Source: a virus
DNA: 55,516 bases
IMG/VR virus record: IMGVR_UViG_3300042934_000707
Coordinates: 1 to 55,516 of that record
Reading direction: 5' to 3' (one strand)
Shown here piece by piece: positions 4,000 to 32,095 of the stretch. Every line of letters begins with the position of its first letter. Positions within the stretch are counted from its first letter, which is position 1. Both the position numbers and the translations under genes were made by a program. The notes beneath the pieces are model-generated. The model was not told where the DNA came from and did no database searches. It saw nothing but the letters and a program-made list of their open reading frames with translations.

Positions 4000-4023
4000 C
4001 CGCTAGGGATTGCTCCCTAGCGG
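4000..4023 (-). terminator. Hairpin after phuZ
   Basis: A perfect 10-bp stem (CCGCTAGGGA / TCCCTAGCGG) with a 4-base loop, just after the phuZ stop. No T-run follows, so it may act as a 3'-end stabiliser or partial terminator. Confidence 0.55.
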
Positions 4024-4036
4024 CACAGGGGGTTGA

Positions 4037-5053
4037 TCAGTCCAGGATCGGACCTTTCTTCTTCTTGCCCGCAACGCCAGTCAGCCCGGCGAAGGACGCC
4101 GTGGTGTTGGTGGTACGGTTCTTCTCGGCAGCTTCGAGTTCACTGTGCAACGCGGCCAGTTCCTTGTGGATGCCGTGCAGCGAGTGCGTTTCGATCGCGA
4201 AGAACAGGTTGTTCTTTTGCGCCACGTTTGGCAAGAAGCCGTCGGTGGAGTACGGAGCAAAGACCGTTGGCTGCTCATCGTCCGGGCTGCGGGTCAGATA
4301 GGCCGCCGAAATGACGTTCTTCTGCTCTTCGTCAAACTTCTCGGCGCTGTCGTACACCTGGATGCGGGACAGAGCAGGTTTGAACTCAGGCTTGACCAGG
4401 TTGTAGTTGATGAAGCTGTCCAAGTCAGCCGTGTCGAAGCCGACGTTGCGGCGTGAGCACAGGATGGCCAGGGCAGTGATCATCAGTTCAGCTTCAGCAT
4501 CCACAGCCGAGCGTGCTACGCCCTTCTTGTTCATGCCCCAGTGGAAGACGATGTTCTTGCCCAGCTCTTCGGACAGGTCTTGCAGGTTCGCCACCGACGT
4601 GATGACGTTCTTGACCTTGCGCTCGTTCTCGGAAGAACCGATCAGCACGACGAAGACGCGCTTGCCCGCTTCGAGCAGCGCTTTGGTCAGGTAGTACGCC
4701 GCCACGTTGCCAGTGCCGCCCGACGCCGTGGAGACCACGATGTTGGCGTAGGCCGCTGGGAACTTGCGGATCACTTCAGGCGTGGCCTTTTCGATCGCTT
4801 CGGCGTTCTTGGACTTGAGCATGCCAGAGCCGTCAAGTTCTTCGCCCTCGATGGACTTGAACAGGTACGCGTTCTTGACCTGGCTGTCGGTGAGGTTCGA
4901 GTCGCTGGTGTCGAGGTAACGCACGCTCAGCTTGGCGATATCAGCTTGCACCGGTTCGGAATCGAATTTCTTGGCAATGTTGGAACCGCCACCACCACAG
5001 CCCCAGATAGCTACGGTGCCGACTTCGCGAGTGGAGAGAATTTCATTGGACAT
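4037..5053 (-). CDS. phuZ: PhuZ-type phage tubulin (FtsZ/tubulin family GTPase)
   Basis: This 338-aa protein is a tubulin/FtsZ-family GTPase. The N-terminal nucleotide loop GCGGGGSN is at residues 18-25, the tubulin signature SGGTGN at 111-116, and an FtsZ-like T7 synergy loop (RNVGFDTADLD) at 201-211. The C-terminal region after about 300 is low in structure and ends with a short Lys-rich stretch and GPILD. In phiKZ-type phages PhuZ forms a dynamic spindle that centres the phage nucleus and carries capsids to it. Length and domain order fit that family; a bacterial FtsZ would be unusual here and lacks the surrounding phage context. It appears to be a single-gene unit: a copy of the promoter-like motif lies 67 bases upstream and a hairpin follows the stop. 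Confidence 0.88.
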   Translation of the reverse strand: MSNEILSTREVGTVAIWGCGGGGSNIAKKFDSEPVQADIAKLSVRYLDTSDSNLTDSQVKNAYLFKSIEGEELDGSGMLKSKNAEAIEKATPEVIRKFPAAYANIVVSTASGGTGNVAAYYLTKALLEAGKRVFVVLIGSSENERKVKNVITSVANLQDLSEELGKNIVFHWGMNKKGVARSAVDAEAELMITALAILCSRRNVGFDTADLDSFINYNLVKPEFKPALSRIQVYDSAEKFDEEQKNVISAAYLTRSPDDEQPTVFAPYSTDGFLPNVAQKNNLFFAIETHSLHGIHKELAALHSELEAAEKNRTTNTTASFAGLTGVAGKKKKGPILD

Positions 5054-8573: not shown

Positions 8574-9047
8574 TTAGAACCAGACTGGATCGGACAGCTT
8601 GGGGTTTTTGGCAACAACGTCTTGAACTTCGTCGTCTTCGCCGATTGACAGCATGTCGTGCACGAAGCTCTTGCTGATGAACAGGCGCTCCTTGACCGAC
8701 TTGTCGCTGAAGATGTCCTGCTGCACTTTGATCACATCCATCGAGTGGCTTTCAGGATGGTGTGCAACGACACGCTCGTACATGCCGCCAGCGTTTTCGC
8801 CACGGTAGATGCTGTAACCCACGATCTCGAGTTCTTCGATCATCGGGGCTTTGTCGTCAAAGATAGTCTTTTGAGCCTTAGGTTCGCCCGGCACCAGACC
8901 CTTGACCGTGATCATAGGCTTGCGGTGCACTTCAAGCGGCAGCGTCAGCAGCTTGCCTTTGGCTGGCTTGTGCTGCTTGAGTTTGCTGTAGACGTACTCA
9001 GCATCGGTGATGACCTTGGATTCAACGCGGGTTGCAGGGTTAGACAT
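8574..9047 (-). CDS. Unknown 157-aa protein
   Basis: Two ATGs are possible. I take the inner one at 9047 (MSNPATRVESKV) because CGGAG lies nine bases upstream; the outer ATG at 9065 has no ribosome site and sits only 22 bases from the promoter-like motif. The N-terminal half is basic (SKLKQHKPAKGKLL), followed by a strand-rich middle (HRKPMITVKGLVPG) and an acidic C-terminal part. Soluble, no membrane segment. Function unknown; it is the first gene after one of the two perfect copies of the motif. Confidence 0.7.
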   Translation of the reverse strand: MSNPATRVESKVITDAEYVYSKLKQHKPAKGKLLTLPLEVHRKPMITVKGLVPGEPKAQKTIFDDKAPMIEELEIVGYSIYRGENAGGMYERVVAHHPESHSMDVIKVQQDIFSDKSVKERLFISKSFVHDMLSIGEDDEVQDVVAKNPKLSDPVWF

Positions 9048-9087
9048 GGGTTGATACTCCGACATGATAAGGTTTATTCCCAGTTGT

Positions 9088-9114
9088 AATGTATTGCGGT
9101 AACTTTTTCGAATC
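9088..9114 (-). promoter_or_regulatory. Promoter-like two-part motif, perfect copy
   Basis: On the minus strand: GATTCGAAAAA, six bases, GCAATACATT. Both boxes are identical to the copy at 26231-26257 while the six-base spacer differs (GTTACC here, TCTATG there). It lies 40 bases before the chosen start at 9047 and just upstream of the divergent plus gene at 9117. Confidence 0.7.
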
Positions 9115-19178: not shown

Positions 19179-21251
19179 ATGTCGTTAACGATGGCTTCGT
19201 CTTTGCCCAGAACGGAAGTTCTTGGGTTCAAGGATGTCAGTGGCCGTGGTCAACCGCTCGAGATCAGCACCCTGCCGATTTTCCTGCCGTTCACCCCGCT
19301 GATGACAGCCTGGGGTCCTGAAGACAATGCTCACATTGTCACAGGCTCGGGCTTCAGCACTATTTACGGTGCTGAGTCCTTCGAAGCGGACAATCCGCTT
19401 TATACCCACCAGAGCGTTTTCGCTCAGAAAGCAATGCAAGTGGGCGGTATGGCGTTGGTTCGCCGTTTGCTCGCTCCCGGCGCTTCGGTGGCCAACACCC
19501 GTATCTGGCTGGACATCGTTGCTGACAAGATCAAGCAATATGCCCGAAATGCCGACGGCAGCTTCAAGAAAACCGACGGTCAGTTGGTAGAAGAAGGCGC
19601 TGCTATTGACGGTTACCGTGGTCGCTTCGTGATCGAGAAAATCGACATCAGCGACGAAGACGGCATCGGCAAAGGCAAGCCAATCACCGGTGGTCTGGTT
19701 GCCGCTGACGGCACCGAATCCACCATGTACCCGATCTTCGACATCGAGGCCCGTTTCTACGGTGCACGCGGTTCCAACACCGGTTTCCGTCTGGTCGCTC
19801 CAACCATGTTGAGCGCCACCCCTACCGACGCCGATCTGATCGAAGAGAAAGGCGGCTTCCTGTATCGCTTCTACGCGCTGACCCGCGCTGATGCGAGCAC
19901 CGGCGGTTCGGTGATCAGCAACCTCGACGGCGAGCAGTACATCGACTTCAGCCTGAAGAAAGGCGTGAAGAACGCCAAGACTGGCATCGATTACTCGGTC
20001 GACAAGCGCATCCTCCCTGGCTACGAAAGCAAGGACCCTGCGTCGTTCACCGGTTACGGCCCGATCCGTTCGTTCAAGGTCTACCAGGACAACGTGAAAA
20101 CCGTTCTGGACCTGATCTACGCGAAGGAAAAGGAATTCGGTCTGATCACGTCCGAAGTGACCCCAGAGCAAACCATCAACCTGCTGGGTGCTGTTTCCCC
20201 AGAAGGAATCCCGTACTACAGCTACGCTATCGAAGGTCCGTCCTCCGGTGGTGCCCTGTTTGGCGAGTCTGCCAACCACTGGCTGCTGGGCGGTAGCGAT
20301 GGCGTCATCGAGGAAGACACCTACGACAAGTTGGTGCGCGATGAGCTGAACGTGTTCGGCGACGGCCTGGTGCCGTACGGCGACAAGGCCAGCTACCCGA
20401 TGTCCTCGTTCGTGGACACTGGTTTCTCCGTAGAGACCAAAATGCTCATGGGTAACATCATGCGCGTTCGTCCAGACGCTTGGGTCGTTGCCTCGACTCA
20501 GGACGTGAACGAGAAGCTCAACACTCCGGCTGAAGATTCCAGCATCGGCGCGATGATTCGTAACGCGCTTCAGCTGATCCCAGAGTCCGAGTACTACGGC
20601 ACCGGCGCCTGCCGCGCTGTGGTCATGAAGCACGCCGGTACTTACCTCGAGTCCGATTACGAAGGCATCCTGCCATTCACGATCGACTGGGCGGTGAAAC
20701 TGGCTGTCTACATGGGCGATGCCAGCGGCAAGATGAAAACCGGTTATGCGACCGACAACGAAGAAAACCGCGTGGTGCGTACGTTCATCGACCACAACGC
20801 CAAGTTCCGCAACGTTGTTCCGCGTAACAAAGACTGGCAGAACGGTATCACCAGTGCTGAGCCATTCGACCATAACGGGTCGGTGTTCTTCCCTGGCATC
20901 CAGACCATCTACCACGACAACACCTCGGTACTGAACTCGTTCTACCCGATGGCTATCTGCTGCCACCTGAACCGTATCGGTGAACTGGCCTGGCGGATGT
21001 ACACCGGCGACAGCCGTCTCACCGCGCTGCAATACGCAGACCGTGTGGACCGCTTCATCGAGGCTCAGGTCAAAGACAGCTACGACAGCCGTGCGGATGT
21101 TACGCCGTCGTCGTACTACACCGCTGCGGATACTCGCCGTGGGTACAGCTGGCACACCGACATCGAAGGTCTGTTCGACGGCATGAAGACGGTGCAACAA
21201 CTGACCATCATCGCCGGTCGTCGTACTGACACCACCACGGAGACCGCATAA
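19179..21251 (+). CDS. Contractile tail sheath protein
   Basis: This 690-aa protein forms the contractile outer tube of the myovirus tail. It starts at the ATG at 19179 with GGGAGA upstream, and a 1-base overlap joins it to the tube gene. The C-terminal 250 residues carry the features of sheath proteins: an Asn/Asp-rich section naming a fixed-up loop (PRNKDWQNGI), a FFPGIQTIYHDN motif and the closing helix-strand unit (LNRIGELAWRMYTGDSRLTAL). The N-terminal half contains large variable inserts, usual in this family. The order sheath then tube, downstream of three structural genes and the terminase, matches phiKZ gp29-gp30. No promoter-like motif was found in the 164-base upstream gap. Confidence 0.9.
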   Translation: MSLTMASSLPRTEVLGFKDVSGRGQPLEISTLPIFLPFTPLMTAWGPEDNAHIVTGSGFSTIYGAESFEADNPLYTHQSVFAQKAMQVGGMALVRRLLAPGASVANTRIWLDIVADKIKQYARNADGSFKKTDGQLVEEGAAIDGYRGRFVIEKIDISDEDGIGKGKPITGGLVAADGTESTMYPIFDIEARFYGARGSNTGFRLVAPTMLSATPTDADLIEEKGGFLYRFYALTRADASTGGSVISNLDGEQYIDFSLKKGVKNAKTGIDYSVDKRILPGYESKDPASFTGYGPIRSFKVYQDNVKTVLDLIYAKEKEFGLITSEVTPEQTINLLGAVSPEGIPYYSYAIEGPSSGGALFGESANHWLLGGSDGVIEEDTYDKLVRDELNVFGDGLVPYGDKASYPMSSFVDTGFSVETKMLMGNIMRVRPDAWVVASTQDVNEKLNTPAEDSSIGAMIRNALQLIPESEYYGTGACRAVVMKHAGTYLESDYEGILPFTIDWAVKLAVYMGDASGKMKTGYATDNEENRVVRTFIDHNAKFRNVVPRNKDWQNGITSAEPFDHNGSVFFPGIQTIYHDNTSVLNSFYPMAICCHLNRIGELAWRMYTGDSRLTALQYADRVDRFIEAQVKDSYDSRADVTPSSYYTAADTRRGYSWHTDIEGLFDGMKTVQQLTIIAGRRTDTTTETA

Positions 21252-22117
21252 TGGCTCGCTACCGCGACACGCTCCTTGGCAATGGCCAGGGGTACGGCGA
21301 GTACGTCAACTCGCCGATGGTAAACCTCGCGGTTGGTGGGCAGAACGCCTACCAATCCGACTTGCGCTACTTCCATGCCAACACGGATTACGTTCGTCGT
21401 AACCTGATCATGAAAGTGCTGCAAGCACCGCGTGGCTTCCAGTATCTGGACAACCCTGCCAGCTACTACAAGGCCCTGAAAGGGATCTGCGAGATGCACG
21501 CGCAGACCTGGGATGGCCTGAACCGTACGTTGACGGTCAACAGCGTTGAAGGCGCGGTCTCGGGTGCTGGCGAAATCCAGCACACCCCGAGTAACGTGCT
21601 GCGTCAGCGCTCCGACCCGTCGATGACGGTCCGCGAGAAGTACGGCCGTCCGATCCAGCGCTTCTTCGAAAGCTGGATCACCGAGCTGATCATGGACCCG
21701 GATTCGAAAGTACCGGGTATCGCTACCCGTGCCAACGCACCGACCGACCTGCTGCCGGACATCTACTCGATGACCGCCATCTTCATGGAACCGGACCCAA
21801 CCTTCACGAAAGTGAACGCGGCCTGGCTCATCACCAACATGTACCCGACTACCGCTGGTGATTTCACCGGTCGTCGTGACAAGACGGCTGATGGTGAAGA
21901 ACTGGTACTGACCATTCCGTGGACCGGTACTCAGCAAGTTGGCCTGGCGGTTGACCGTTTCGCCCAGACTCTTCTGGACGGCATGGTGAAGACCGGCACC
22001 AACCCGAACCTCAAGCCTGCGTTCATCAACGCGGTCGACGCCGACGTGCTGTCTTACAGCACCGTGGGTTACACCGAGCAGGTGGCTGAGTTCAACCGCA
22101 ACTTCATCCGTCCGTAA
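21251..22117 (+). CDS. Tail tube protein
   Basis: 288 residues beginning MARYRDTLLGNGQGYGEY. The ATG overlaps the sheath stop codon by one base (TAATG), so the two are translated together. Length and location directly after the sheath identify it as the inner tail tube subunit, in the position of phiKZ gp30. The middle section (KYGRPIQRFFESWITELIMDPDSK) and a late strand-rich part (DGEELVLTIPWTGTQQVGLAV) fit the tube fold of two stacked beta-sheets around a helix. A strong bidirectional hairpin follows the stop. Confidence 0.87.
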   Translation: MARYRDTLLGNGQGYGEYVNSPMVNLAVGGQNAYQSDLRYFHANTDYVRRNLIMKVLQAPRGFQYLDNPASYYKALKGICEMHAQTWDGLNRTLTVNSVEGAVSGAGEIQHTPSNVLRQRSDPSMTVREKYGRPIQRFFESWITELIMDPDSKVPGIATRANAPTDLLPDIYSMTAIFMEPDPTFTKVNAAWLITNMYPTTAGDFTGRRDKTADGEELVLTIPWTGTQQVGLAVDRFAQTLLDGMVKTGTNPNLKPAFINAVDADVLSYSTVGYTEQVAEFNRNFIRP

Positions 22118-22145
22118 GGGCGATGGGGAAGCAAAAAAGAAAGAG

Positions 22146-22179
22146 CATACACCCCCGGCCATCTGGCCGGGGGTGTATG
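22146..22179. terminator. Bidirectional terminator hairpin (15-bp stem)
   Basis: A perfect 15-bp stem (CATACACCCCCGGCC and complement) with a tetraloop between the tube gene and a convergent minus-strand gene. It belongs to the same hairpin family as 11353 and 47201. Confidence 0.75.
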
Positions 22180-22187
22180 TTGTCTAT

Positions 22188-22502
22188 TCAGTGGGTGTAG
22201 CGGGCCACACAGAAATCGCCACGGTTGGTGGACACGAAGATATGCCGCCAGCCGGAGTTGTCTCGCCAGTTGACTTCACGGTCGTAAGGCGTGTAACCGA
22301 TGTTCTTGCCAAAGCTGCGAAAGGTAAAGCCACGTGCGTCTACCGATAGGAACTCACGTAGCGCTAAACCCGTCGCTGGAAGGCCTAGGTCATCCAACAG
22401 ATGCTGAGTGCCATAACCGTAGCCAACGTACTCGATGTCGTCTTCTATGGCGCTCAGGAGCGCTTCTAGGGCTATGTCATCCTTAGTCGCTTGGTGTTTC
22501 AT
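22188..22502 (-). CDS. Unknown 104-aa protein
   Basis: 104 residues beginning MKHQATKDDIALEAL. The start overlaps the upstream gene by 20 bases. The N-terminal 30 residues are acidic and helical (ALLSAIEDDIEYVG), the rest is strand-rich and ends basic (RGDFCVARYTH). No known motif. It is the last gene before the tube-gene terminator. Unknown function. Confidence 0.65.
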   Translation of the reverse strand: MKHQATKDDIALEALLSAIEDDIEYVGYGYGTQHLLDDLGLPATGLALREFLSVDARGFTFRSFGKNIGYTPYDREVNWRDNSGWRHIFVSTNRGDFCVARYTH

Positions 22503-23061
22503 TCTTCACTACCCGCAAACGTGGTTTAAGGGGTAAGACGTTGTCTGCTTTCGGTGGGGAGGGAGCAGGGTTCTCCATGACAGTGAAGTCAGGTTTGAAG
22601 GCATCGTTAGCCGAGTAATCCGGTACACCGCAGGAATTGCCATGACCGTGATCATCAGGACGATCCGGGCAGCAGCAAGAGGGCAGGCCTTCTTTCTCTG
22701 CCATCAGTTCAACGCACCAGTGAGTCAGTGTGTTGAAGATGTGGCACATGGAGTATTCCATGTTGGGCAACGGGTGGGTGATGATGACCCCACTTGGGAT
22801 CTCGGGGCACAGCGTGATGCTGCATTCCTGGAAGGGCTCTTCAACCGTGCCTGCAATGAAACGGATCTTGAGCAACCGGCCCATGGGTTCGGTGACCCAG
22901 TTGGCTTTGATCTCTACGCGCATGAAGGGTTCGTACATGCCTTCAGGCATGTCATCGCCTTCGTACACGGTGTTGCGCTCATCGAGGTCAAAACACCCCA
23001 AGTGGTTGTACAGAACAATCCCGATCAGGTTTCCGTACAGCTGGTTATGCAACGTAGACAA
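22483..23061 (-). CDS. Unknown 192-aa protein with a Cys/His cluster, TTG start
   Basis: A strong GAGGAGG lies six bases before the TTG at 23061, so I start there (STLHNQLYGNLIG after the start); the frame is open six codons further but that start would overlap the ribosome site. The N-terminal two thirds are strand-rich and acidic. Near residue 135 there is CCCPDRPDDHGHGNSC, four Cys and two His within 16 residues, which could bind a metal ion. The C-terminal 50 residues are Pro-rich and basic. No known family. Confidence 0.6.
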   Translation of the reverse strand: MSTLHNQLYGNLIGIVLYNHLGCFDLDERNTVYEGDDMPEGMYEPFMRVEIKANWVTEPMGRLLKIRFIAGTVEEPFQECSITLCPEIPSGVIITHPLPNMEYSMCHIFNTLTHWCVELMAEKEGLPSCCCPDRPDDHGHGNSCGVPDYSANDAFKPDFTVMENPAPSPPKADNVLPLKPRLRVVKNETPSD

Positions 23062-23087
23062 ACAACACCTCCTCGACAAAAAATAAA

Positions 23088-23111
23088 CACACGGGCCCGA
23101 AGACCCGTGTG
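23088..23111 (-). terminator. Rho-independent terminator
   Basis: An 8-bp stem (CACACGGG / CCCGTGTG) followed on the minus strand by TTTATTTTTTG. It ends the 349-aa gene. Confidence 0.8.
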
Positions 23112-23121
23112 GAGTGGCTGC

Positions 23122-24171
23122 TTATGCCTTGACTTCGCGAAGGATGGTGCGTTCCTTACGCTTGGTAGGCGCTTTCTTCTGGGACTTGACCTTCGGCTTG
23201 TCTTCCACGACCATCGGGCGGTTGGACAATGCCATCGGCGTCTTGGTACGCACCGGGGCTACAGGCGCAGCCGGGATGGTAGCTTTCGGACGTTCCACAT
23301 ACTCTTGGACATCCATCTGGCGCTGCTTGAGGATCTGGCTGCGGTCAGTGAAGTCTTTACCGGCATCCGTCTCGCGGGTCTTCGGTACCCAGGTACGACG
23401 AGGACGAGTAGGCTGCGGGTTCAGGAAGAAACCGAAGGTCTGCTTGTAATCGTTGTTGGTCTGGATGCTGAGGTGCCACACGCCATCAGGGTTGTTGCTG
23501 TCGCAGTTGAAGGAGTTGAAGAACACCTTGGCTGCGCCATCGTTGACCATCGTCACCAGCGTTGCTTTGTCCTGACGAACGATCTCGTCCAGCAGGTCTT
23601 GAGCCACGTTAGGCAGCGCTACACCGAAGTAGTAGCAGTCCTTGTGCTTCTTGAGCAGGTCCATCGCTTTCTCACGCAACAGCGTGAAGTTGATCGTATC
23701 GTCCGTCATCAGCAGACGATCAGTGCACCCTGCCGCACTCACCATGCGACCGAGGTTGTTCAGCTTTTCCACCAGCGCACTGTACACACGGTACTGCTCG
23801 TCGGTGACGCCTTTGAAGTACAGGCCCAGACGGCCGCCTTCAGGGTCTTTGTCCACGTACTGCATCTGGTCCAGCCAGTTGTACTCACGCAGCACTTGCG
23901 CCTGCTTCTCGTAAGACGAGGTGAACAGGTTCAGGAACTTCATCTTGACGTCGTCGTCCAGATCACTGTCGTCGATGTCAGCGATCAGCTCTTCTTCTTT
24001 GCGTGCCCCATTACGGGAAACGCTGGCGCTGTCGCTTTCACGGTAGGTCCAGTCGAAGCCACGCAGTTTCAGTGCGAACTGTTCTTCGAGGTTCAGCGGG
24101 CGTCCCAGAGCCCGGCAACGGTTAATGGCGGAGAGGCGGTTAAGTTCTTCTTCGGTAAGGTGGCCCAGCAT
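23122..24171 (-). CDS. Unknown 349-aa protein
   Basis: 349 residues beginning MLGHLTEEELNRLSA. The N-terminal 230 residues are helical and highly charged, with an acidic patch (DIDDSDLDDDVKMKFL). A strand-rich section around 235-265 (GVWHLSIQTNNDYKQTFGFFL) follows, and then a long Arg/Pro/Lys-rich tail (residues 270-349: many Arg, Pro and Lys, ending RKERTILREVKA) that is probably unstructured and could bind nucleic acid. It forms a single-gene unit between a promoter-like motif 52 bases upstream and a terminator. Not recognised. Confidence 0.7.
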   Translation of the reverse strand: MLGHLTEEELNRLSAINRCRALGRPLNLEEQFALKLRGFDWTYRESDSASVSRNGARKEEELIADIDDSDLDDDVKMKFLNLFTSSYEKQAQVLREYNWLDQMQYVDKDPEGGRLGLYFKGVTDEQYRVYSALVEKLNNLGRMVSAAGCTDRLLMTDDTINFTLLREKAMDLLKKHKDCYYFGVALPNVAQDLLDEIVRQDKATLVTMVNDGAAKVFFNSFNCDSNNPDGVWHLSIQTNNDYKQTFGFFLNPQPTRPRRTWVPKTRETDAGKDFTDRSQILKQRQMDVQEYVERPKATIPAAPVAPVRTKTPMALSNRPMVVEDKPKVKSQKKAPTKRKERTILREVKA

Positions 24172-24223
24172 TGTTATCCCCTTGTTGGTTAAGTGCAGGT
24201 GACAAGCCCATCGTCATACCTGT

Positions 24224-24250
24224 GATGTATCGCCGTAATTAATTGGAATC
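24224..24250 (-). promoter_or_regulatory. Promoter-like two-part motif
   Basis: On the minus strand: GATTCCAATTA, six bases, GCGATACATC, 52 bases before the ATG at 24171. GATTC and RATACAT are exact. Confidence 0.6.
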
Positions 24251-24286
24251 GATCACGGGGGCAAAACAAAAGTCCTGCATAGAGAA

Positions 24287-24314
24287 CCACTCAGCCGCTC
24301 TCACGGCTGAGTGG
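24287..24314 (-). terminator. Terminator hairpin
   Basis: An 11-bp stem (CCACTCAGCCG / CGGCTGAGTGG) with a 6-base loop after the gene at 24331-24795. TTCTC follows on the minus strand, with a later TTTTGTTTTG. Confidence 0.7.
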
Positions 24315-24330
24315 CGTCGCTACTTGGCGC

Positions 24331-24795
24331 TTACTGACCGAAGATGGAGGTAGCTTCGGTGACCAGGTGTTCCTGGATGCGCTTGAAGTTGCCGCGTTTC
24401 TGGCCGATGCCGCTCACCAGCTTCAGATTCGAGGCGCCGTACTTCGGCTTTTCTTCGGTGCTGCCCGGCGCGCGGGTCATGACCTTGCGATCGTAGCTGG
24501 CCAGCAGCTGATCGTGGCCGATGTTCAGGGAAACGGTGGTGCGGTCAATGCCTTTGTTGGCTTGCAGGTGCGACTTGGACTTGTCGCCGTTGCCCAGGAC
24601 CAGAGCGTCGCCGAAGTCCAGCTCGACTTCTTGATGGCGCTTGAGGGAATCGACGGTCACGTCTTCAGGCAGGTTGTCGGCGAGGAAGGATTCGGGAAGG
24701 GTGCCTTGGCCGTCGTCGTCGTAGGTGATGGCTTCGTTGATTTTCGCAGCGAGGGCCAGAACGTGGGCTGGTACTTTTTCCAGGTTGGTCGACAT
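24331..24795 (-). CDS. Unknown 154-aa protein
   Basis: The start at 24795 (MSTNLEKVPAHVL) has GTGGAG eight bases upstream; the frame continues 16 codons further upstream without ribosome site. Acidic N-terminal half with an Asp-rich patch (YDDDGQGTLPESF) and a basic C-terminus (GQKRGNFKRIQEHL). It is a single-gene unit flanked by a motif copy 94 bases upstream and a hairpin. Small acidic-then-basic proteins of this kind occur in jumbo phages without known function; I do not recognise this one. Confidence 0.7.
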   Translation of the reverse strand: MSTNLEKVPAHVLALAAKINEAITYDDDGQGTLPESFLADNLPEDVTVDSLKRHQEVELDFGDALVLGNGDKSKSHLQANKGIDRTTVSLNIGHDQLLASYDRKVMTRAPGSTEEKPKYGASNLKLVSGIGQKRGNFKRIQEHLVTEATSIFGQ

Positions 24796-24889
24796 CGTGT
24801 TGCTCCACTTGTTGAGAATTTGATTAATCCGGGTGTAACGCACAGCAGATGAGTGCAGAGTTTTAATTTACATCCTTACTCCCCTTGAT

Positions 24890-24916
24890 AATGTATTGTT
24901 CAAGGAATCTTCAATC
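24890..24916 (-). promoter_or_regulatory. Promoter-like two-part motif
   Basis: On the minus strand: GATTGAAGATT, six bases, ACAATACATT, 94 bases before the ATG at 24795. GATT and CAATACATT match exactly. Confidence 0.6.
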
Positions 24917-24935
24917 GAAGAAAAAAGAAAGCAAT

Positions 24936-24961
24936 CACTGGGAGCCCGAAGGCTCCCAGTG
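24936..24961 (-). terminator. Rho-independent terminator
   Basis: An 11-bp stem (CACTGGGAGCC / GGCTCCCAGTG) with a tetraloop, followed on the minus strand by ATTGCTTTCTTTTTTCTTC. It ends the four-gene membrane-protein run. Confidence 0.85.
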
Positions 24962-24968
24962 GGTCTGC

Positions 24969-25325
24969 TTACTTGTTCTTGGCACGCAGGCTGGCTTTCA
25001 GAGCGATGTTCCACTCATCCAGCAGGCCCGACTCAACGGCTTGCTCACGGGTCATGCTCAGCAGTGCGTGCGACTGTTGGGCAGCGACCTGCTCAGCGGT
25101 TTGCACTGGAGCTGCTGGAGCAGCCTCAGCGGCGTTTGCAGCCACCACAGCAGCAATGCCTGGGGTTTGCTTGGCCGGACGGTTACGCAGGTATTTGACG
25201 CCCTTGTAGCCACCGTAGCCGACAGCCACCGAACCCACCGCGATGCCAGCGGCAGCGATAGGGTTGGCTTTGATCAGGCCCAGAGCGGATTCGGCAGCAG
25301 TTTTGATAGCGGTCATAACGGACAT
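24969..25325 (-). CDS. Small membrane protein, 118 aa
   Basis: 118 residues with GGAG seven bases before the ATG. A single strongly hydrophobic, Gly/Ala-rich segment at about 22-40 (NPIAAAGIAVGSVAVGYGG) is probably a transmembrane helix, followed by a basic stretch (KYLRNRPAKQT) and an Ala/Gln-rich soluble C-terminal half. The positive-inside rule would place the C-terminal half in the cytoplasm. It is the last of four neighbouring small membrane-type genes reading the same way and ends at a strong terminator. Holin-like or membrane-remodelling roles are possible but not shown. Confidence 0.7.
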   Translation of the reverse strand: MSVMTAIKTAAESALGLIKANPIAAAGIAVGSVAVGYGGYKGVKYLRNRPAKQTPGIAAVVAANAAEAAPAAPVQTAEQVAAQQSHALLSMTREQAVESGLLDEWNIALKASLRAKNK

Positions 25326-25366
25326 GGTGAATCTCCTAGCGATGTAGCGAATGGTTGGGTTAGGTG

Positions 25367-25495
25367 TTACGCGAGTTTGGTAGCTTGTTGCTTTGGAGCA
25401 GGTTTGCGCAGCTTGTCGCCGAAGTACGCCATGACGCCGAACGCCACGAAGAAGCCGACGATTACAGCGAGGTCAATCCAAGGGTTGTGGGTCAT
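25367..25495 (-). CDS. Tiny membrane protein, 42 aa
   Basis: A 42-codon gene, MTHNPWIDLAVIVGFFVAFG and onward to KQQATKLA. It has AAGGAA eight bases before the ATG. Residues 7-25 form one strong hydrophobic helix (IDLAVIVGFFVAFGVMAYF), followed by a basic stretch (GDKLRKPAPK). The reading frame, ribosome site and position between two related small genes make it a real gene despite its size. It is typical of one-pass small phage membrane proteins. Function unknown. Confidence 0.7.
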   Translation of the reverse strand: MTHNPWIDLAVIVGFFVAFGVMAYFGDKLRKPAPKQQATKLA

Positions 25496-25507
25496 GGCAG
25501 TATTTCC

Positions 25508-25633
25508 TTAGGCAGTAGCAGTTTTAGCGCGGAGGGTTTCGAGTTCTTTCTTGAGGTCTACATCATCACGACGCCCTTTCATCCACAGGGCACCGAACGT
25601 GAAACCAATAGCGAGGAAGGCAATCTCTTTCAT
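25508..25633 (-). CDS. Tiny membrane-anchored protein, 41 aa
   Basis: A 41-codon gene, starting MKEIAFLAIGFTFGALWMKG, with a near-ideal AAGGAGACTGTC ribosome site before the ATG. Residues 4-18 form a short hydrophobic helix, followed by a charged amphipathic helix (RRDDVDLKKELETLRAK) that could be a coiled coil. It lies 12 bases upstream of the 42-aa gene. One-pass anchor plus coiled coil is a design seen in spanin-like, holin-accessory and membrane-scaffold proteins; none is proven here. Confidence 0.7.
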   Translation of the reverse strand: MKEIAFLAIGFTFGALWMKGRRDDVDLKKELETLRAKTATA

Positions 25634-25649
25634 GACAGTCTCCTTAGAC

Positions 25650-26171
25650 TTAATGACGGTTACGCAGGATCGAGCCCAGAAGCCCCAGGCCCGCGCCTAC
25701 AGCAGCACCGAGGGCAACAGCTGCATCCATCTCTGGATTATGGCTGGTGATCACGGTACGGCGTACAGTCGTCGTTTCTTGACGACGGTGTTCAACAACC
25801 ACTGGACGCTCGACGTACACGGTACGTTCTACGATCACAGCGTCACGGCATTCTTCCAGAGCGATGAGCGCATCGCCGCAGAGAACCACGTCTTGCTTGG
25901 TGGCGATCAACGCAGCACCGACCAGTTGCATTTCAGCAGCCGACAGCTTTTCGTAGTCGGTGCCAAACATCAACCAGGTGGAGCGGTAGTCGATTTCCAC
26001 TTCAGACAGTTTCCACTTACGCGAACGGCTGTCCATTTTGAACTTCACCTTCGAAGCGCCGAAGGTGCTGGTGCCGAAGCGAACTTCCATGCTGTAGCTG
26101 GAACTGCGTACGTTAGCCACGTGTTGCAGGGTGTTCATTTCGGAAGTGCGCGAGATAGTGATGATGTTCAT
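25650..26171 (-). CDS. Unknown 173-aa protein with C-terminal membrane anchor
   Basis: 173 residues beginning MNIITISRTSEMNTL, with GGAG nine bases before the ATG. The first 120 residues are a soluble, strand-rich domain with two Cys (LCGDALIALEEC). Then comes a Val/Arg-rich linker (VERPVVVEHRRQETTTVRR), and residues about 149-170 form a Gly/Ala/Leu-rich hydrophobic segment (AAVALGAAVGAGLGLLGSIL) with a basic end. This is a tail-anchored layout. It is the first gene of a four-gene run, with a perfect motif copy 59 bases upstream. Confidence 0.7.
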   Translation of the reverse strand: MNIITISRTSEMNTLQHVANVRSSSYSMEVRFGTSTFGASKVKFKMDSRSRKWKLSEVEIDYRSTWLMFGTDYEKLSAAEMQLVGAALIATKQDVVLCGDALIALEECRDAVIVERTVYVERPVVVEHRRQETTTVRRTVITSHNPEMDAAVALGAAVGAGLGLLGSILRNRH

Positions 26172-26230
26172 GCTGTGTTCTCCATTAGAACAAGGGTTAG
26201 GTAGAGATTAGTCTCTCTATTCACATGTAC

Positions 26231-26257
26231 AATGTATTGCCATAGATTTTTCGAATC
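26231..26257 (-). promoter_or_regulatory. Promoter-like two-part motif, perfect copy
   Basis: On the minus strand: GATTCGAAAAA, six bases, GCAATACATT, 59 bases before the ATG at 26171. Both boxes are identical to the copy at 9088-9114. Confidence 0.7.
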
Positions 26258-26275
26258 GAATAACAGACGGCATAA

Positions 26276-26309
26276 ACACCCCTCTACGGCCGATGCCGTA
26301 GAGGGGTGT
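26276..26309 (-). terminator. Terminator hairpin (15-bp stem)
   Basis: A perfect 15-bp stem (ACACCCCTCTACGGC and complement) with a tetraloop, just after the 417-aa head gene, followed on the minus strand by TTTATGCCG. Confidence 0.75.
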
Positions 26310-26316
26310 CCAGTGC

Positions 26317-27570
26317 TTAGCGGTTCTTCGCAGCCTTGGTCACGGAGTCAGCCGCGTCGTTCAGCTGACGCACGATTGCGTACAGGATGGTGAACGCGCC
26401 ATTGAGGCACTCCCAGCCCAGACGATCGAGTTCGCTGATCGCACGGATGGCGATCTTGGCTTTGTCGCTGCCACGCACGTCGGCGCGCAGTTTCTTGACC
26501 AGTGCACTGTGAGCAGCCCACTTGCGTGGAGCGTTGCTACGGATCGAAGCAGTCTTGGTAGCGACGGCCTTGATCTTCTCGAGTGCGGTGACCATGTCTT
26601 CGATCTTGACTTCACGCTTGGTGGAGCCTTGAACGATGAGGTACAGCAGCGTACCGAAGTTGCCGGTCAGGTTGGCCACGATTTCCATGCCGGTGGCTTT
26701 TGGCCAGGACACGTTCAGGCTGTAACCGTTGGACCAGTCTTTGCTCAGGTGCTCGCCGCCCTTGAGGTCGAAACGCTTGACGTTCAGACGACGGTTGCAG
26801 AGGGTCCACTTCTCGTCGAGCTTGTCGTACGCTTCTTTACCGGTGTTCTTCAGCGCGGCAATGGCTTTGAGGCCTTTCTCGGCTTCAGCTTCATCGGACC
26901 AGTCGATCTTGTAGGCGGCGTCAGCGGCCTTCTGAGCGTTGGTGGTGGCTTCTTCGCCCAGGCGCAGCATGATGTCAACCAGGCTGGCGGTGTCGCTGGC
27001 CGCGCCGGTCAGGTTCGGGGCGATGGTGTTGTTGACCTGGAAGATCTTCCAGAGGTTGCCCATGGAGATCTTGGCGCTGCCCTTGTAGTTCTTCAGGACG
27101 GCGATCTTGTCACCCATGTTCGGGATTTCACGGTTCAGGATGCCGAGGTGGTCCCACAGGTCCTTGACCGAGTAGCTTTCCAGCGACACGTCAACGGCCG
27201 ATTCCAGAGAAGCGGCTTGGCTGCGCAGTTGAGCCACGACATGAGGAGCACGGGCGGAAGCGTCGCCAAAGGACTCCAGGCCGGTGTCTTTCATGCGGAA
27301 GCCGTAACGGCCAGTCACAGCGTTGGCGAGGCGTACAGCGGCGTCCAGGGACTCGTGGGTGACTTCCACGCCAGCTTCTTCGATGCCAGCAGCTTCTTGC
27401 ACCAGAGTACCGACGTCGCCTTCCACTTCGATGCGCTCGGCAACGTAGGTGTTAGGGTCCAGGTCGTTGGCCTCTTCCACGAGGGTTTCGAGCAGGTCGG
27501 CCGAAGCCTGTTGCTCTTCGATTTCCTCGAGCGAGACCTTCAAAGCGTTGGTCAGCAAATCGTTACGCAT
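26317..27570 (-). CDS. Probable internal head protein, 417 aa
   Basis: 417 residues beginning MRNDLLTNALKVSLEEIEEQ. The first 150 residues are acidic and Glu-rich with at least three SLE motifs (KVSLEE, AASLES, DVSLES), which fit the SxE specificity of the phiKZ head protease gp175. The remaining two thirds are basic-to-neutral and helical. An acidic, cleavable N-terminus on a helical body is typical of phiKZ-type internal head (inner-body) proteins. It is the last gene of a long head and polymerase unit ending at a terminator, two genes downstream of the protease gene. Which inner-body protein it equals cannot be decided by eye. Confidence 0.65.
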   Translation of the reverse strand: MRNDLLTNALKVSLEEIEEQQASADLLETLVEEANDLDPNTYVAERIEVEGDVGTLVQEAAGIEEAGVEVTHESLDAAVRLANAVTGRYGFRMKDTGLESFGDASARAPHVVAQLRSQAASLESAVDVSLESYSVKDLWDHLGILNREIPNMGDKIAVLKNYKGSAKISMGNLWKIFQVNNTIAPNLTGAASDTASLVDIMLRLGEEATTNAQKAADAAYKIDWSDEAEAEKGLKAIAALKNTGKEAYDKLDEKWTLCNRRLNVKRFDLKGGEHLSKDWSNGYSLNVSWPKATGMEIVANLTGNFGTLLYLIVQGSTKREVKIEDMVTALEKIKAVATKTASIRSNAPRKWAAHSALVKKLRADVRGSDKAKIAIRAISELDRLGWECLNGAFTILYAIVRQLNDAADSVTKAAKNR

Positions 27571-27657
27571 GTCTTTCTATCCTTAAAGGAACGGGGTGCC
27601 ATGAACGGCAGGGAGAGAGCGGGCACTTCATAGAAATACCCGCCAAACGTGGATGTG

Positions 27658-28956
27658 TTACTTGGCTTTTGACAACACCTTGTTCGCCATGGTTGTTACA
27701 CCCCGGTACACGTAAGTGGCGTGGTCTTCCATCATGGTGGCAATCAGCTTGCCGAGGAACATGTACTGCGACACCGAACGACGGGCTGACTTGTGCAGGT
27801 CCATCAATTCCCGGTAGACCACATGGTCAAACTTGCCGGTTTCCTTGTTGATCACGTTGTCGTACGCGTCATCCAAGTCATCGGACAGGCGAGCCACGCG
27901 TTCACCCATGGAAGCAGCCATCTGTGCAAAGCGCACGGAGTCTTGGTTGAGCACCTGAGCCCGATCCATCACTTTCATGAAGTCCGGGAACGGTACCGCG
28001 CCACCGGTCTTGGCCAGCGCAGTGGTCACAGCCTTTTGGCCTGCCACAGCGTCCATACCCGGCACGGCCAACACAGCCTTAGGCGCCCCACCGATGGAGA
28101 ACCCATTGATGGTCCCGTTGGTGATGCCTGCGGTCAGGTTGTGCTCATCGTCCGCCTTGGTGGTGAACTTGATCGGATCACCGGCCAGCTTGGTGATCTT
28201 CGGGTAGCCTTTCTTGTCCAGCTCCACCACGCGGTTGCCCAGCAAGCGGAACTTGGTCAAGTCTTCAAACCCGTTACGGTCGAGCAACGAGGTGTCAAAG
28301 AAGTCAATGGCTTCCCGAATGGTCTCAGCGGTCATGCTGGTCGCAGCCGCCCGGAAGACCTTACTCATCTCGGTCGATTTCTCGAACAAGGTTTTGTAAT
28401 GCTTCTCGCAGGCTTCGATGAACTTGACGTCGTCATCAATGCAGGACACGAACTTGGTCACCGGCTTATCGTCCTTGGACAAGAAGCGGTAGATGTCCGG
28501 GGTGTCCAGCAGGATCGGGTTTGCCGCGATGCTGTCTTGCTTGGCCTTCAGTTCCATTTTGATCTTGAACAGGTTCTTACCGAACGTGCGCAAGTTCGTG
28601 GAGACTGCGTCGTAGGTGCGTTTGAGCATCTGAACGAGGTCAGACTCAAGCGACGGGTTGTGCAGAGCAGCCAAAGTGCGTCTAGCGTCCGCCAGAGACT
28701 CCTCAGGCGACGATCGAGGGGTAACCGCCGTAACGACCCCTTCATCGGCCAACCACTGCTTATACGCGCCGTCAACCACCATTACGTCGACCATGTTGCC
28801 GTCAGACAATTCGAACTGGTTGATGAACCCTTCCAGCGTGATGCGACTGTCCACCAAGGTGGCCATGTCAATCAGCGATTCCATTGCAGGGATCAGGTCA
28901 GGTTCAGATTCCAGCGAGACCCGTCCGACCAAGATGTCATTGATCGAAGGTTTCAT
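27658..28956 (-). CDS. Probable internal head protein, 432 aa
   Basis: 432 residues beginning MKPSINDILVGRVSLESEPD, with GGTGATCCC just before the ATG. SLE or MES sites occur near the start (RVSLES, PAMESL) and around residue 105 (NPSLES), consistent with processing after Glu by the phiKZ-type protease next door. The body is helical, charged and ends basic. A similar architecture in the downstream 417-aa gene suggests two members of the same inner-body group. It lies four bases after the protease gene. Confidence 0.65.
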   Translation of the reverse strand: MKPSINDILVGRVSLESEPDLIPAMESLIDMATLVDSRITLEGFINQFELSDGNMVDVMVVDGAYKQWLADEGVVTAVTPRSSPEESLADARRTLAALHNPSLESDLVQMLKRTYDAVSTNLRTFGKNLFKIKMELKAKQDSIAANPILLDTPDIYRFLSKDDKPVTKFVSCIDDDVKFIEACEKHYKTLFEKSTEMSKVFRAAATSMTAETIREAIDFFDTSLLDRNGFEDLTKFRLLGNRVVELDKKGYPKITKLAGDPIKFTTKADDEHNLTAGITNGTINGFSIGGAPKAVLAVPGMDAVAGQKAVTTALAKTGGAVPFPDFMKVMDRAQVLNQDSVRFAQMAASMGERVARLSDDLDDAYDNVINKETGKFDHVVYRELMDLHKSARRSVSQYMFLGKLIATMMEDHATYVYRGVTTMANKVLSKAK

Positions 28957-28960
28957 GGGA

Positions 28961-29770
28961 TCACCAGTTCATTGCGGCAGGGACGTAGATGCGGATCGGT
29001 TTCTCGATCTCAGCCACGAGGGAGAACAGCTCGTTGTTGGCACTTTCCATGGCGACATTACCACGGGCAATCTCAGCGGACAGTTCCAGCTCAGCGCGCA
29101 GGCTGTCGGTGAAGAAGCTCACTTCCAGATCGGCTTGGTTGGTGTCGGCGGAGAGCGACAGGTTTTCCATCGCTGGCATGACGTTCTTGAGGATCGAGTT
29201 GGACTTCGACGCGTCGGACATGCCCGGCTCGTTGACGTTGTCCCACGTGACGATCTTCTTGAGCATCTTGGTCTTACGACCGCCCAGGATCTTGTCCTCG
29301 GTAAAGGAACGGATCGAGAAGCACACGTCTTCTTCTGGGTTTTCGAACTGCTTCTCCAGCCACGCGTACGCCGAGCCGCTTGGTGCGACTAGGCCCATGA
29401 TCAGGATGATGTTGTTGCCCTGCTCGTCCTTGTGACCGTCGAAGGACAGCGACACTTTGGAGATGTGCGAGCAGATGTTGGGTTCGAAGATGTCGTTGAC
29501 CCGTTGGAACCATTGCAGCTGCGTCATGCCCGGTGCAAAGCGTGGGTGACCGTTCTCACCACGAAGCCGCTTGGCCAGGATACGACGTTGCAGTTCGGCA
29601 CTGTTCTCGAAGAGCGCTTTGGCGTGTTCGAACGAGTAGTACCAGCCTGCGGAGTTGTACGCGTTCAGGGCCCCGAGGATCACCCAACGGTAGCCGTTGG
29701 CATCCTTGGAGAGATTCCCCGCTTTGTTCACGCCGTTGATCGCGGCGCATTGGTAAACGATCTGTGTCAT
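28961..29770 (-). CDS. Prohead protease, phiKZ gp175 type
   Basis: 269 residues with AAGAGG before the ATG. The motif GENGHP at 71-76 is the His box found in T4 gp21 and related prohead serine proteases (His75). The nucleophile is probably Ser152 in CFSIRSF (150-156), about 77 residues after the His. Near the C-terminus, VAMESANNE offers a self-cleavage site of the (S/A)xE type. The protease would sit inside the prohead, cut internal head proteins after Glu, and be destroyed or released. Its neighbours on both sides are head genes, and the order with the RNAP genes fits phiKZ gp175-gp180. Length is usual for the family. Confidence 0.78.
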   Translation of the reverse strand: MTQIVYQCAAINGVNKAGNLSKDANGYRWVILGALNAYNSAGWYYSFEHAKALFENSAELQRRILAKRLRGENGHPRFAPGMTQLQWFQRVNDIFEPNICSHISKVSLSFDGHKDEQGNNIILIMGLVAPSGSAYAWLEKQFENPEEDVCFSIRSFTEDKILGGRKTKMLKKIVTWDNVNEPGMSDASKSNSILKNVMPAMENLSLSADTNQADLEVSFFTDSLRAELELSAEIARGNVAMESANNELFSLVAEIEKPIRIYVPAAMNW

Positions 29771-29779
29771 GATGACCTC

Positions 29780-30505
29780 TTAAGTCCGAAGAATCTGCTC
29801 AGTACGCTCGACGCGGTCGCCGGGGTTGACAATGGCCGACGTCATGCCCTCGTCGAAGCGAGAACCCGTGATTTTAGCGATGGTGTTGGTGGCCCCGTAA
29901 CTGACGTTACGCAGCGGGATGACGGTTGGAGGGTTCTGAGTGATTTCTTCTTTGGTCTGAACAACCTGCCGGTAGTAACGACGCAAATCGTTAGGGTCAC
30001 GGGCGATTGTGCTTACGATGATTTCCATGACTGTAGGGGTCGAACCCACAGTGACGCCTGCGTGTTTCTTCGCAGAGTCAAACAAACGACCGAGGTCATC
30101 GTAACCGATGTACCACGGCACCCGGCCCTTGGCGATGATCTCGTCGTAGATCCGGTACATGAGGTTGTCGATCTTCACCAAGTCAAGCGATGCAATCACG
30201 CGATCGCCTGGCTCGTACTGCAACTCGAGGTATTCGACATCGTCGATCACCACGGTGTTGACCAGCGTAGGCTCGGTCCGAATAGGGGCGCAGATCATGG
30301 CCGACATGAAGTAGGTGTCGTCCAGTGTAATCGCGCAGATACCAACCAGCGTGATCTCATCTTCAAAGACTGCCAAATCGCGCTGGGGAAACCGAGCCGG
30401 GATATACATTTTGACTGGCTTAAGGGCTACCACCGAACGCTCAGCAGTTTCCTCAAGCGCTTTGTGCACGCGCGCAGCATCACGGATAAACTGGCTCGAT
30501 TTCAT
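29780..30505 (-). CDS. Conserved virion-region protein, 241 aa
   Basis: 241 residues beginning MKSSQFIRDAARVHKALEE, with GGTGGAGAG just before the ATG. Helical N-terminus, then a strand-rich centre (MYIPARFPQRDLAVFEDEI, VEYLELQYEPGDRVIASL) and a helical C-terminal third. It lies between the protease gene (9 bases after it) and the 450-aa gene, in the place of phiKZ gp176. A structural or assembly role is likely from location only. Confidence 0.6.
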   Translation of the reverse strand: MKSSQFIRDAARVHKALEETAERSVVALKPVKMYIPARFPQRDLAVFEDEITLVGICAITLDDTYFMSAMICAPIRTEPTLVNTVVIDDVEYLELQYEPGDRVIASLDLVKIDNLMYRIYDEIIAKGRVPWYIGYDDLGRLFDSAKKHAGVTVGSTPTVMEIIVSTIARDPNDLRRYYRQVVQTKEEITQNPPTVIPLRNVSYGATNTIAKITGSRFDEGMTSAIVNPGDRVERTEQILRT

Positions 30506-30555
30506 TTTCTCTCCACCTGGGTATAACCGGAGGGACGAACCCTCCGGTCACTGGG

Positions 30556-31908
30556 TTAAGCGGTTGCAATGCACAGTTGGGAAGCAATCCAGTTGTTGAC
30601 GTACTTGATCGTAGCCAACAGCGCGATTTCGCGTGGATCACCGTCACCGCCGAACTGAGCACCGACACGGTTGATGATCATGATGACAGAACGGGCATCG
30701 GATTCTGGGTAGAACACGTTGCACACGATGTCGGTCAGCGCTTGGTACAGGTCACCGCACTTGGCTTCAGTCAGCTTGTCGATTTCGGCCGACAGGCGAG
30801 TGCGCAGGATATCGGTGTCAACGCTGTCAGCGTCAAGCTTGGCGATTTCCATGCGAATGGCCGTGTCGATCACGTTACGGCAGATGCCGAACATCTCGGA
30901 CTGAGTGCGCAAGGCACGCAGGTTCATTTCACGATCGTAGATCGCTTTGAGACCCTGTGCGTTTTCGATCAGTTGACCGGCGGTGTACTTGCGACCTGCC
31001 ATTTCGTTGCCGATCAGGACTTCAGGACTCAAGCCATCGTCGAGCAACTTGCGGTAGGTTTCGCCCATCACAATCACCTGAGTGATCGAGGTGCGCTCTG
31101 GGACGTACAGCAGGCCCAGTTCACGGGACCGCTTGAAGTTGGCCGCACGGGCCAGTGTCATGGCTGCTGCTGCATGGATCACAGCGTTCAGCGCCGCGTT
31201 GTAGTCGTGCAGGCCCAGCTTCACGCCTTCACCCGGTTCGTCGTAGATGGCTTGAGCCACCACCATCAGACCCGGTGCATAATCGAAGTCCATGTCACCG
31301 AAGCCTTTACGGCCAGCGAGCACGTCCATCACCTGAGCGTAGCCTTCGTTGTTGTTCAACGAGAGCAGGTTCGCCAGATCCGCATCAGAACCGGCCATGC
31401 CAGTCTTGGCGTGAGCGATGATGTCGTCCACGACCATGATGTTGATGACCTTGGCTGGCGGGTAACTGAGGTCACGCACACCGTAACGCTCGGCCATGCC
31501 GATAACGCCTTGGTTGGTGAACGCTGCCGGGATCTCTTTCATGACGATCTCGTACGGCGAGGTGGCCGATTGACGACGACCTTCGACCGAACCGCTCACT
31601 TGCTCAACCAGCAGCTTGATGTGCGGCAGAACAACGTTACGGGCGTTGTCCAGTGTACGGCTCACGCATTCGGAAGCCACTTTCACCAGATCGGTCATGG
31701 CCAGACCATGCGCCACTTCTTTGGAACGTTCCGAGACCAGACCCACGAGGTCCGCATTCTCAGAGATGCCCAGGTCAAAACCTGAACGGTTGCAGGAGAG
31801 CAGCAGGCTCATCATCGGCGTGCCATCTTTAGGCAGCAGACGGATGCCGCGCTCTTTCAGCTTCTCGGCCACCGGCAGAGCTGCTTCAATACTGACACGG
31901 TTAAGCAT
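30556..31908 (-). CDS. Conserved virion-region protein, 450 aa
   Basis: The start used is the ATG at 31908 (MLNRVSIEAALPVAEKL), which overlaps the stop of the 64-aa gene by eight bases (ATGCTTAA); the longer frame to 31956 lies inside that gene. A SIE site at residues 6-8 could be cleaved by the head protease. The protein is Ala/Leu-rich, helical and soluble. Its location between protease and beta genes corresponds to phiKZ gp177. A virion or assembly role is inferred from location. No enzymatic motif is seen. Confidence 0.62.
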   Translation of the reverse strand: MLNRVSIEAALPVAEKLKERGIRLLPKDGTPMMSLLLSCNRSGFDLGISENADLVGLVSERSKEVAHGLAMTDLVKVASECVSRTLDNARNVVLPHIKLLVEQVSGSVEGRRQSATSPYEIVMKEIPAAFTNQGVIGMAERYGVRDLSYPPAKVINIMVVDDIIAHAKTGMAGSDADLANLLSLNNNEGYAQVMDVLAGRKGFGDMDFDYAPGLMVVAQAIYDEPGEGVKLGLHDYNAALNAVIHAAAAMTLARAANFKRSRELGLLYVPERTSITQVIVMGETYRKLLDDGLSPEVLIGNEMAGRKYTAGQLIENAQGLKAIYDREMNLRALRTQSEMFGICRNVIDTAIRMEIAKLDADSVDTDILRTRLSAEIDKLTEAKCGDLYQALTDIVCNVFYPESDARSVIMIINRVGAQFGGDGDPREIALLATIKYVNNWIASQLCIATA

Positions 31909-32095
31909 TTCGGGCGCCCTCGATGGAGTTGTTGATTTCGCTGGCCGCCAGAGCACACATCGTACGTTCCGTCACGGGAACGCCATCGAGATGGTTGGAG
32001 ATCAGGTTACCGGACACGTTGGCGATCACTTCTGTGGCCAACTGCACAGCGTTCGCAGCCACCGTGAGGTTATCGAATTCGATAGCAGTGCTCAT
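31901..32095 (-). CDS. Unknown 64-aa protein
   Basis: 64 residues beginning MSTAIEFDNLTVAANAVQ, with AGGAATTTACTC before the ATG. It is helical and rich in Ala, Asn and Ile. It is coupled to the 450-aa gene by an 8-base overlap and lies 62 bases after the beta gene. Possibly a small scaffold or partner of the downstream protein. Unknown. Confidence 0.65.
   Translation of the reverse strand: MSTAIEFDNLTVAANAVQLATEVIANVSGNLISNHLDGVPVTERTMCALAASEINNSIEGARNA

Follow-up and report, generated by a model that had tools for sequence, protein, structure and literature searches.

The window analysed here, the whole 55,516-nt stretch of IMG/VR record IMGVR_UViG_3300042934_000707, contains a minus-strand unit of small genes whose final three, named A, B and C (41, 42 and 118 aa), are best explained as a conserved cassette of three predicted single-pass inner-membrane microproteins in one clade of nucleus-forming jumbo phages. 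Judged by sequence comparison, only three of the four genes in the unit are conserved, and the fourth occupies a variable slot. We propose, at a probability of about 30%, that A-B-C anchors or marks the prohead-assembly site on the inner membrane.

Organization of the unit

All four genes of the preliminary description are present on the minus strand, each with a good ribosome site, and the unit has a single promoter-like motif and a single terminator (Table 1). Shine-Dalgarno-like sequences (GGAG, AAGGAG, AAGGA and AGGAG, read from the sequence) lie 5' of each of the four ATGs, and a hairpin-like inverted repeat, seen by eye, occupies the site in the relatives that corresponds to the hairpin between the 417-aa gene and the unit. 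The observation is sound, the interpretation offered with it is supported in part, and the small frames A, B and C are confirmed as real genes.

Table 1. Features of the unit and its surroundings in the window
Feature	Position	Strand	Basis or remark
173-aa gene	26171-25650	minus	ORF; predicted tail-anchored, fills variable slot
Gene A, 41 aa	25633-25508	minus	ORF
Gene B, 42 aa	25495-25367	minus	ORF
Gene C, 118 aa	25325-24969	minus	ORF
Terminator-like hairpin, 11 pairs, closing the unit	24961-24936	minus	hairpin scan
Hairpin between 417-aa gene and unit	26277..26308	minus	by eye, without a hairpin-scan call
Promoter-like element	26218..26248	minus	aligns with TTTCAACrATACATrrT....GTGA of relatives
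5'-leader hairpin TAGAGA-GACTAA-TCTCTA	26202..26219	minus	-6.2 kcal/mol; 0/200 shuffles as stable
Downstream neighbour, 154 aa, conserved marker gene	24331..24795	minus	phrog_9746
Upstream neighbour, 417 aa, head-type protein	26317..27570	minus	phrog_24630 virion structural protein, E 2.6e-5

The promoter-like element belongs to a pattern, TTTCAACrATACATrrT....GTGA, that is common to the leaders of 15 genomes (the alignment leaves out L012 and L023). The copy in the window has the top score there with a PWM that contains this copy, and at 23.0 it is the weakest fit among the leaders, the others scoring 37-46. The "perfect motif copy" of the preliminary description, which gives no letters, is taken to be CAATACATT at 26239-26231 (minus), inside the element and before the 173-aa gene; this motif has three copies in the window against 0.19 expected, and none of 100 shuffles reached three. 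The third copy, at 9088-9096 (minus), stands directly before a 163-aa ORF (8574-9065) that has no Pfam or PHROG match. A hairpin follows the element in 12 of the 15 genomes (L008, L013 and L022 have none), and its stems differ between genomes (GGAAGA/TCTTCC, GAGGA/TCCTC, GGTAGA/TCTACC, GATAGG/CCTATC, TAGAGA/TCTCTA and others). Among four sequences scanned, elements of the same type also precede PA10_00107 and PA10_00044 of the cultured Pseudomonas phage DT01. We infer both the promoter function of the element and the late timing of the unit, the latter from position only.

The leader of the 154-aa gene (24796-24907, minus) is itself long (about 110-130 nt) and conserved in the clade. It carries TACATTAT..., often a hairpin-like stretch with a AAATAAAA-type loop and, in many genomes, a CACGTGTTGA-like stretch after it. 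Rfam gave no match in the window, this leader included.

A, B and C are conserved as coding genes

Genes A, B and C were found in identical order and place in all 17 contigs that reach that far, namely the window, DT01 and 15 viral contigs; 15 of the 17 are distinct, as L011/L012 and L014/L023 encode identical A, B and C proteins. Loss of the small frames in close relatives, which had been named as grounds for refutation, was therefore not observed. Among phage records, DT01 alone is close in DNA sequence to positions 20000-32000 of the window. Screening viral contigs for the 432-aa neighbour found three contigs, and screening them for the 154-aa neighbour found 16 loci, of which three repeat those contigs and one (L019) starts 150 bases upstream of the marker gene and hence lies outside the count; A-B-C is present in all 12 remaining loci. 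A separate scan with B returned 11 loci, each on an already-known contig. Single-protein searches with the 173-aa and 118-aa proteins had no match in phages (E 1) or viral contigs, and an alignment search with the 417-aa protein found no relatives.

The relationship of the small proteins was clear when the window was compared with four relatives, the alignment score exceeding those of 2000/2000 shuffles in all 12 comparisons (z 6.7-20.8). Profiles, which contain the window copies, recovered those copies at E 5e-16 for A, 2e-19 for B and 2e-21 for C. Pooled dN/dS of A-B-C was 0.44, 0.21, 0.32, 0.34, 0.23, 0.22 and 0.30 in the seven pairs computed; single-gene values vary, and in gene B of L008/L009 the replacement rate is higher than the silent rate. 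On the whole, the A, B and C frames behave as protein-coding genes under purifying selection. The preliminary description considered the two tiny genes easy to miss, but DT01 has both annotated, as hypothetical proteins.

The closest known system is DT01 itself (MW735835.1), in which PA10_00100, PA10_00101 and PA10_00102 are the three genes of the window in equal order and with equal neighbours, with pairwise alignment identities of 40% (A), 38% (B) and 44% (C). DT01 differs in that its slot is empty, C has 90 aa, B ends in LRGATRVA and the cassette is annotated as hypothetical only. Outside the clade, the C profile indicated that the cassette is absent from phiKZ, Ea35-70, PhiEaH1, LucasX and pEa_SNUABM_54. 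Weak C-like matches in FLC9, Eowyn, G004 and G015 (E 0.002-0.019) and chance-level B matches in LucasX, FLC9 and Eowyn (E 0.013-0.094) were excluded from the members; the A profile covered selected segments of the named phages rather than whole records. In Klebsiella phage Eowyn (NC_070650.1), the small proteins gp205 and gp206 lie within the equal protease-to-tail-tube interval and are weak profile matches near noise (A 0.021, C 0.005), whereas B is missing from this place and many other genes lie in between.

A, B and C have diverged further than the flanking genes in two close pairs, L008/L009 and L011/L013. This variability, together with the swapping of the slot gene among genomes, would fit a role in superinfection exclusion or in protecting the infected cell, in which the membrane proteins block a second phage or a membrane-acting host defence. 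We regard this as quite unlikely, since the divergence is unremarkable (the L008/L009 contigs diverge in 123 of 428 windows of 250 nt), L018/L020 have an identical A and a nearly identical B, and PADLOC assigned no family at E 0.1 to the eight proteins scanned. A hypervariable hot spot at A-B-C, suggested by L008 versus L009, was dropped because these control windows diverge anyway, L018/L020 do not have it and the 417-aa neighbour is more divergent: the median identity over 105 pairs was 30.2% for the 417-aa protein, 38.6% for A, 44.2% for B, 37.7% for C and 63.6% for the 154-aa protein. In the contigs of two close relatives, G001 and G002 (L088-L099), differences are mainly in islands; the divergence falls mostly in G001 12-45 kb, and A-B-C is one of several islands elsewhere.

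The slot between the promoter and A holds different genes

The interval between the promoter and A differs in content among the 17 genomes: it is empty in two (DT01 and L015) and holds a 93-94-aa gene in five, a 128-129-aa gene in six, a 139-aa gene in one, a 124-127-aa gene in two and the 173-aa gene in the window only. Identities of 34% and 21% point to a possible relationship between the 128-129-aa and 139-aa genes, which perhaps extends to the 124-127-aa genes. L022 is the only one of the contigs listed in which an additional 47-aa one-pass protein, at 4011-4154, separates the slot gene from A. All 16 relatives lack the 173-aa gene in the slot, which is empty or filled by other genes, and the 173-aa gene is therefore no conserved part of the unit; the expectation that the order of four genes would be conserved did not hold.

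The 173-aa family is found elsewhere in 10 of 11 clade genomes by profile search (four of the ten supplied profile rows), each time at a distance of 0.4-2.1 kb to a gene annotated in DT01 as a putative transglycosylase; the profile had no match in phiKZ or Eowyn. A single-protein search with a relative from this family detected it in one of 13 other contigs. DT01 PA10_00046 (187 aa) belongs to the family by profile (E 2.9e-30) and also has a C-terminal hydrophobic segment, but it adjoins the transglycosylase-like gene whereas the window gene adjoins A-B-C. The structure model of the 173-aa protein has a fairly confident alpha/beta domain (residues 1-106) and a poorly modelled C-terminal part with the hydrophobic segment. 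Its fold had no PDB match at E 0.001, and the solved structures gave one match to the family, at chance level. Candidate folds from VIA were given no weight, as the best Z of 4.2, many acetyltransferases at about 3.5-4 and chimallin at 3.3 are all in the common range. Two BFVD matches, of 187 and 140 aa, reached E 0.001 or better; from their equal lengths they are presumably DT01 PA10_00046 and PA10_00048. The 173-aa gene is best explained as a tail-anchored accessory that fills the variable slot in the window phage, and the family can occupy two distinct membrane-protein loci.

The second of these loci in DT01 (MW735835.1, 40.2-45.8 kb, L044) is another array of small membrane-type proteins by the transglycosylase-like gene, with two-span, N-anchored and tail-anchored types and a promoter-like element of the unit type before PA10_00044. 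The transglycosylase-like gene is also adjoined, at 47.2-54.1 kb (L044), by five genes annotated as radical SAM and by two 2OG-Fe(II) oxygenase-like genes.

A, B and C are predicted single-pass membrane proteins

The view that A, B and C look like one-pass membrane proteins is borne out in 17 of 17 genomes, where each has a single hydrophobic segment and a more basic C-flank. According to the positive-inside rule, the established guide to membrane topology, such flanks predict an N-out/C-in orientation. The A protein has its hydrophobic segment at about residues 4-18, followed by a charged, helix-prone tail; the segment is short for a membrane span, which counts against a membrane-platform role. 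The B protein starts with NPWID, followed by a single strong hydrophobic segment (KD peak 2.7) and a basic tail. Its C-terminus is conserved in 16 of 17 genomes (LRGATR in 15, LRGVTR in one) and lost in the window, where it reads QQATKLA. The C protein combines an amphipathic N-terminus, an NPIAAAGI hydrophobic segment, a basic patch and an Ala-rich tail, at the end of which a further helix is predicted; its structure model (pLDDT 67.8) has helices at 2-20, 22-47 and 77-117, and no solved structure matched.

No Pfam, PHROG or PADLOC family was assigned to A, B or C. In the window, A and C had no Pfam family at E up to 1, the sole Pfam match of B was DUF6684 (E 0.083), and PHROG and Pfam profile scans of the three gave no lysis-family match; small holins often escape profiles. 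Kinship between B and C was rejected, as the profile comparison gave a probability of 33% only.

The main rival to a membrane platform is lysis control, in which A, B and C would be holin-, antiholin- or pinholin-like timers of membrane opening and the 173-aa protein their tail-anchored lysis partner. Tiny one-pass proteins suit such a role, and both the 173-aa family and an element of the unit type, before PA10_00044, recur on the transglycosylase side of the genome. Many holin genes, but not all, adjoin the endolysin gene; in DT01, however, the transglycosylase-like gene lies ~55 kb from A-B-C, so that the holin-beside-endolysin arrangement is not seen, and it is convergent to the small-protein genes of the second locus. 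The two-span small proteins PA10_00038, 39 and 41 near it are better holin candidates, the C-in tails of A, B and C are unlike spanins, and the only lysis-family match among the A, B and C proteins scanned was to an Rz-like spanin, for the B of L011 (E 0.1). Taken together, we consider lysis control unlikely.

A possible inner-membrane platform for prohead assembly

The conserved block runs prohead protease, 432-aa gene, 417-aa gene, slot, A, B, C and 154-aa gene, and the prohead protease and the 417-aa gene match head-and-packaging families. In DT01, the virion RNA polymerase genes and three small to middling genes precede the prohead protease and the 429- and 419-aa genes; then come the 46-, 45-, 90- and 159-aa genes, the first three of which align with A, B and C, and later the tube and sheath. 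The window, a 55.5-kb fragment, carries two marks of the Chimalliviridae: a multisubunit virion RNA polymerase (beta subunit matches phrog_3148 and phrog_2986) and a phiKZ-type sheath (matches to the phiKZ gp29PR Pfam family and to tail sheath phrog_3242). The supposed nucleus-forming setting agrees with the relatives: ChmA (E 1e-17 or better) and PhuZ were found in all 14 genomes searched, 11 of the clade and three others, and since they encode chimallin and PhuZ, the relatives are nucleus-forming phages.

The presence of ChmA and PhuZ in all 11 clade genomes, and predicted C-in tails that point toward the cytoplasm, would also suit proteins that dock the phage nucleus or PhuZ filaments at the membrane. 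The nucleus shell, however, is described as a product of early genes in the cited part of one account (PMC12908238), while the unit lies among head and tail genes, and phiKZ has no cassette by the B and C profiles; we find docking very doubtful. Alternatively, the small proteins might be packaged in the head and injected, and then help to turn inner membrane into the early infection vesicle. They adjoin head-type genes, and the vesicle appears to be derived from the inner membrane, its mode of formation being left open in the cited parts of two accounts (PMC12908238, PMC13282480). Against injection, C has no conserved prohead-protease-like cleavage motif by eye, the DT01 paper, as far as cited here, has no virion proteomics, and one-pass hydrophobic proteins would be unusual cargo, which makes it very improbable indeed.

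We favour a platform for prohead assembly because the cassette neighbours the prohead protease and head genes, and because of the predicted topology, the conservation and the capsids reported on the inner membrane. The position beside head genes is weak evidence; the block also holds variable genes. A, B and C would be made late as inner-membrane proteins that expose short N-termini outside and extend basic or helical tails into the cytoplasm, and they would mark or hold a site on this membrane for the portal, the scaffold or prohead assembly; once assembled at the membrane, the prohead would travel to the phage nucleus. According to the cited parts of two accounts, the inner membrane of the bacterium is where chimallivirus capsids assemble (PMC12908238; PMC10299810), and prohead initiation in T4 is described, in the part of the source cited, as gp40-dependent and located at the inner membrane (PMC9958956). 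The proposed job would thus be that of T4 gp40 and the membrane-bound gp20 portal initiator, carried out by proteins without a detected relation; the likeness is in the job alone, an inner-membrane prohead start, and no sequence relation of gp40 to A, B and C appeared in a Pfam scan, the comparison made here. T4 is not known to use a three-microprotein cassette for this step. By the B and C profiles, phiKZ and other chimalliviruses lack the cassette, although membrane assembly of capsids is ascribed to phiKZ-type phages as well; these must then rely on a different anchor. The stronger claim, that A-B-C and a swappable fourth protein form a dedicated phage-made inner-membrane capsid platform and are the missing link between membrane and prohead, is tentative and somewhat less probable.

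The cited parts of the DT01 paper mention no holin, endolysin or proteomics. The combination of nucleus-forming phages with small transmembrane proteins was not found in the literature searched, and the cited parts of the accounts of chimallivirus inner-membrane capsid formation name no phage membrane factor. Genes of ~42 codons are under selection in these genomes, and A-B-C may offer a small conserved candidate set for that factor. As the cassette is present in the cultured phage DT01, its role is directly testable.
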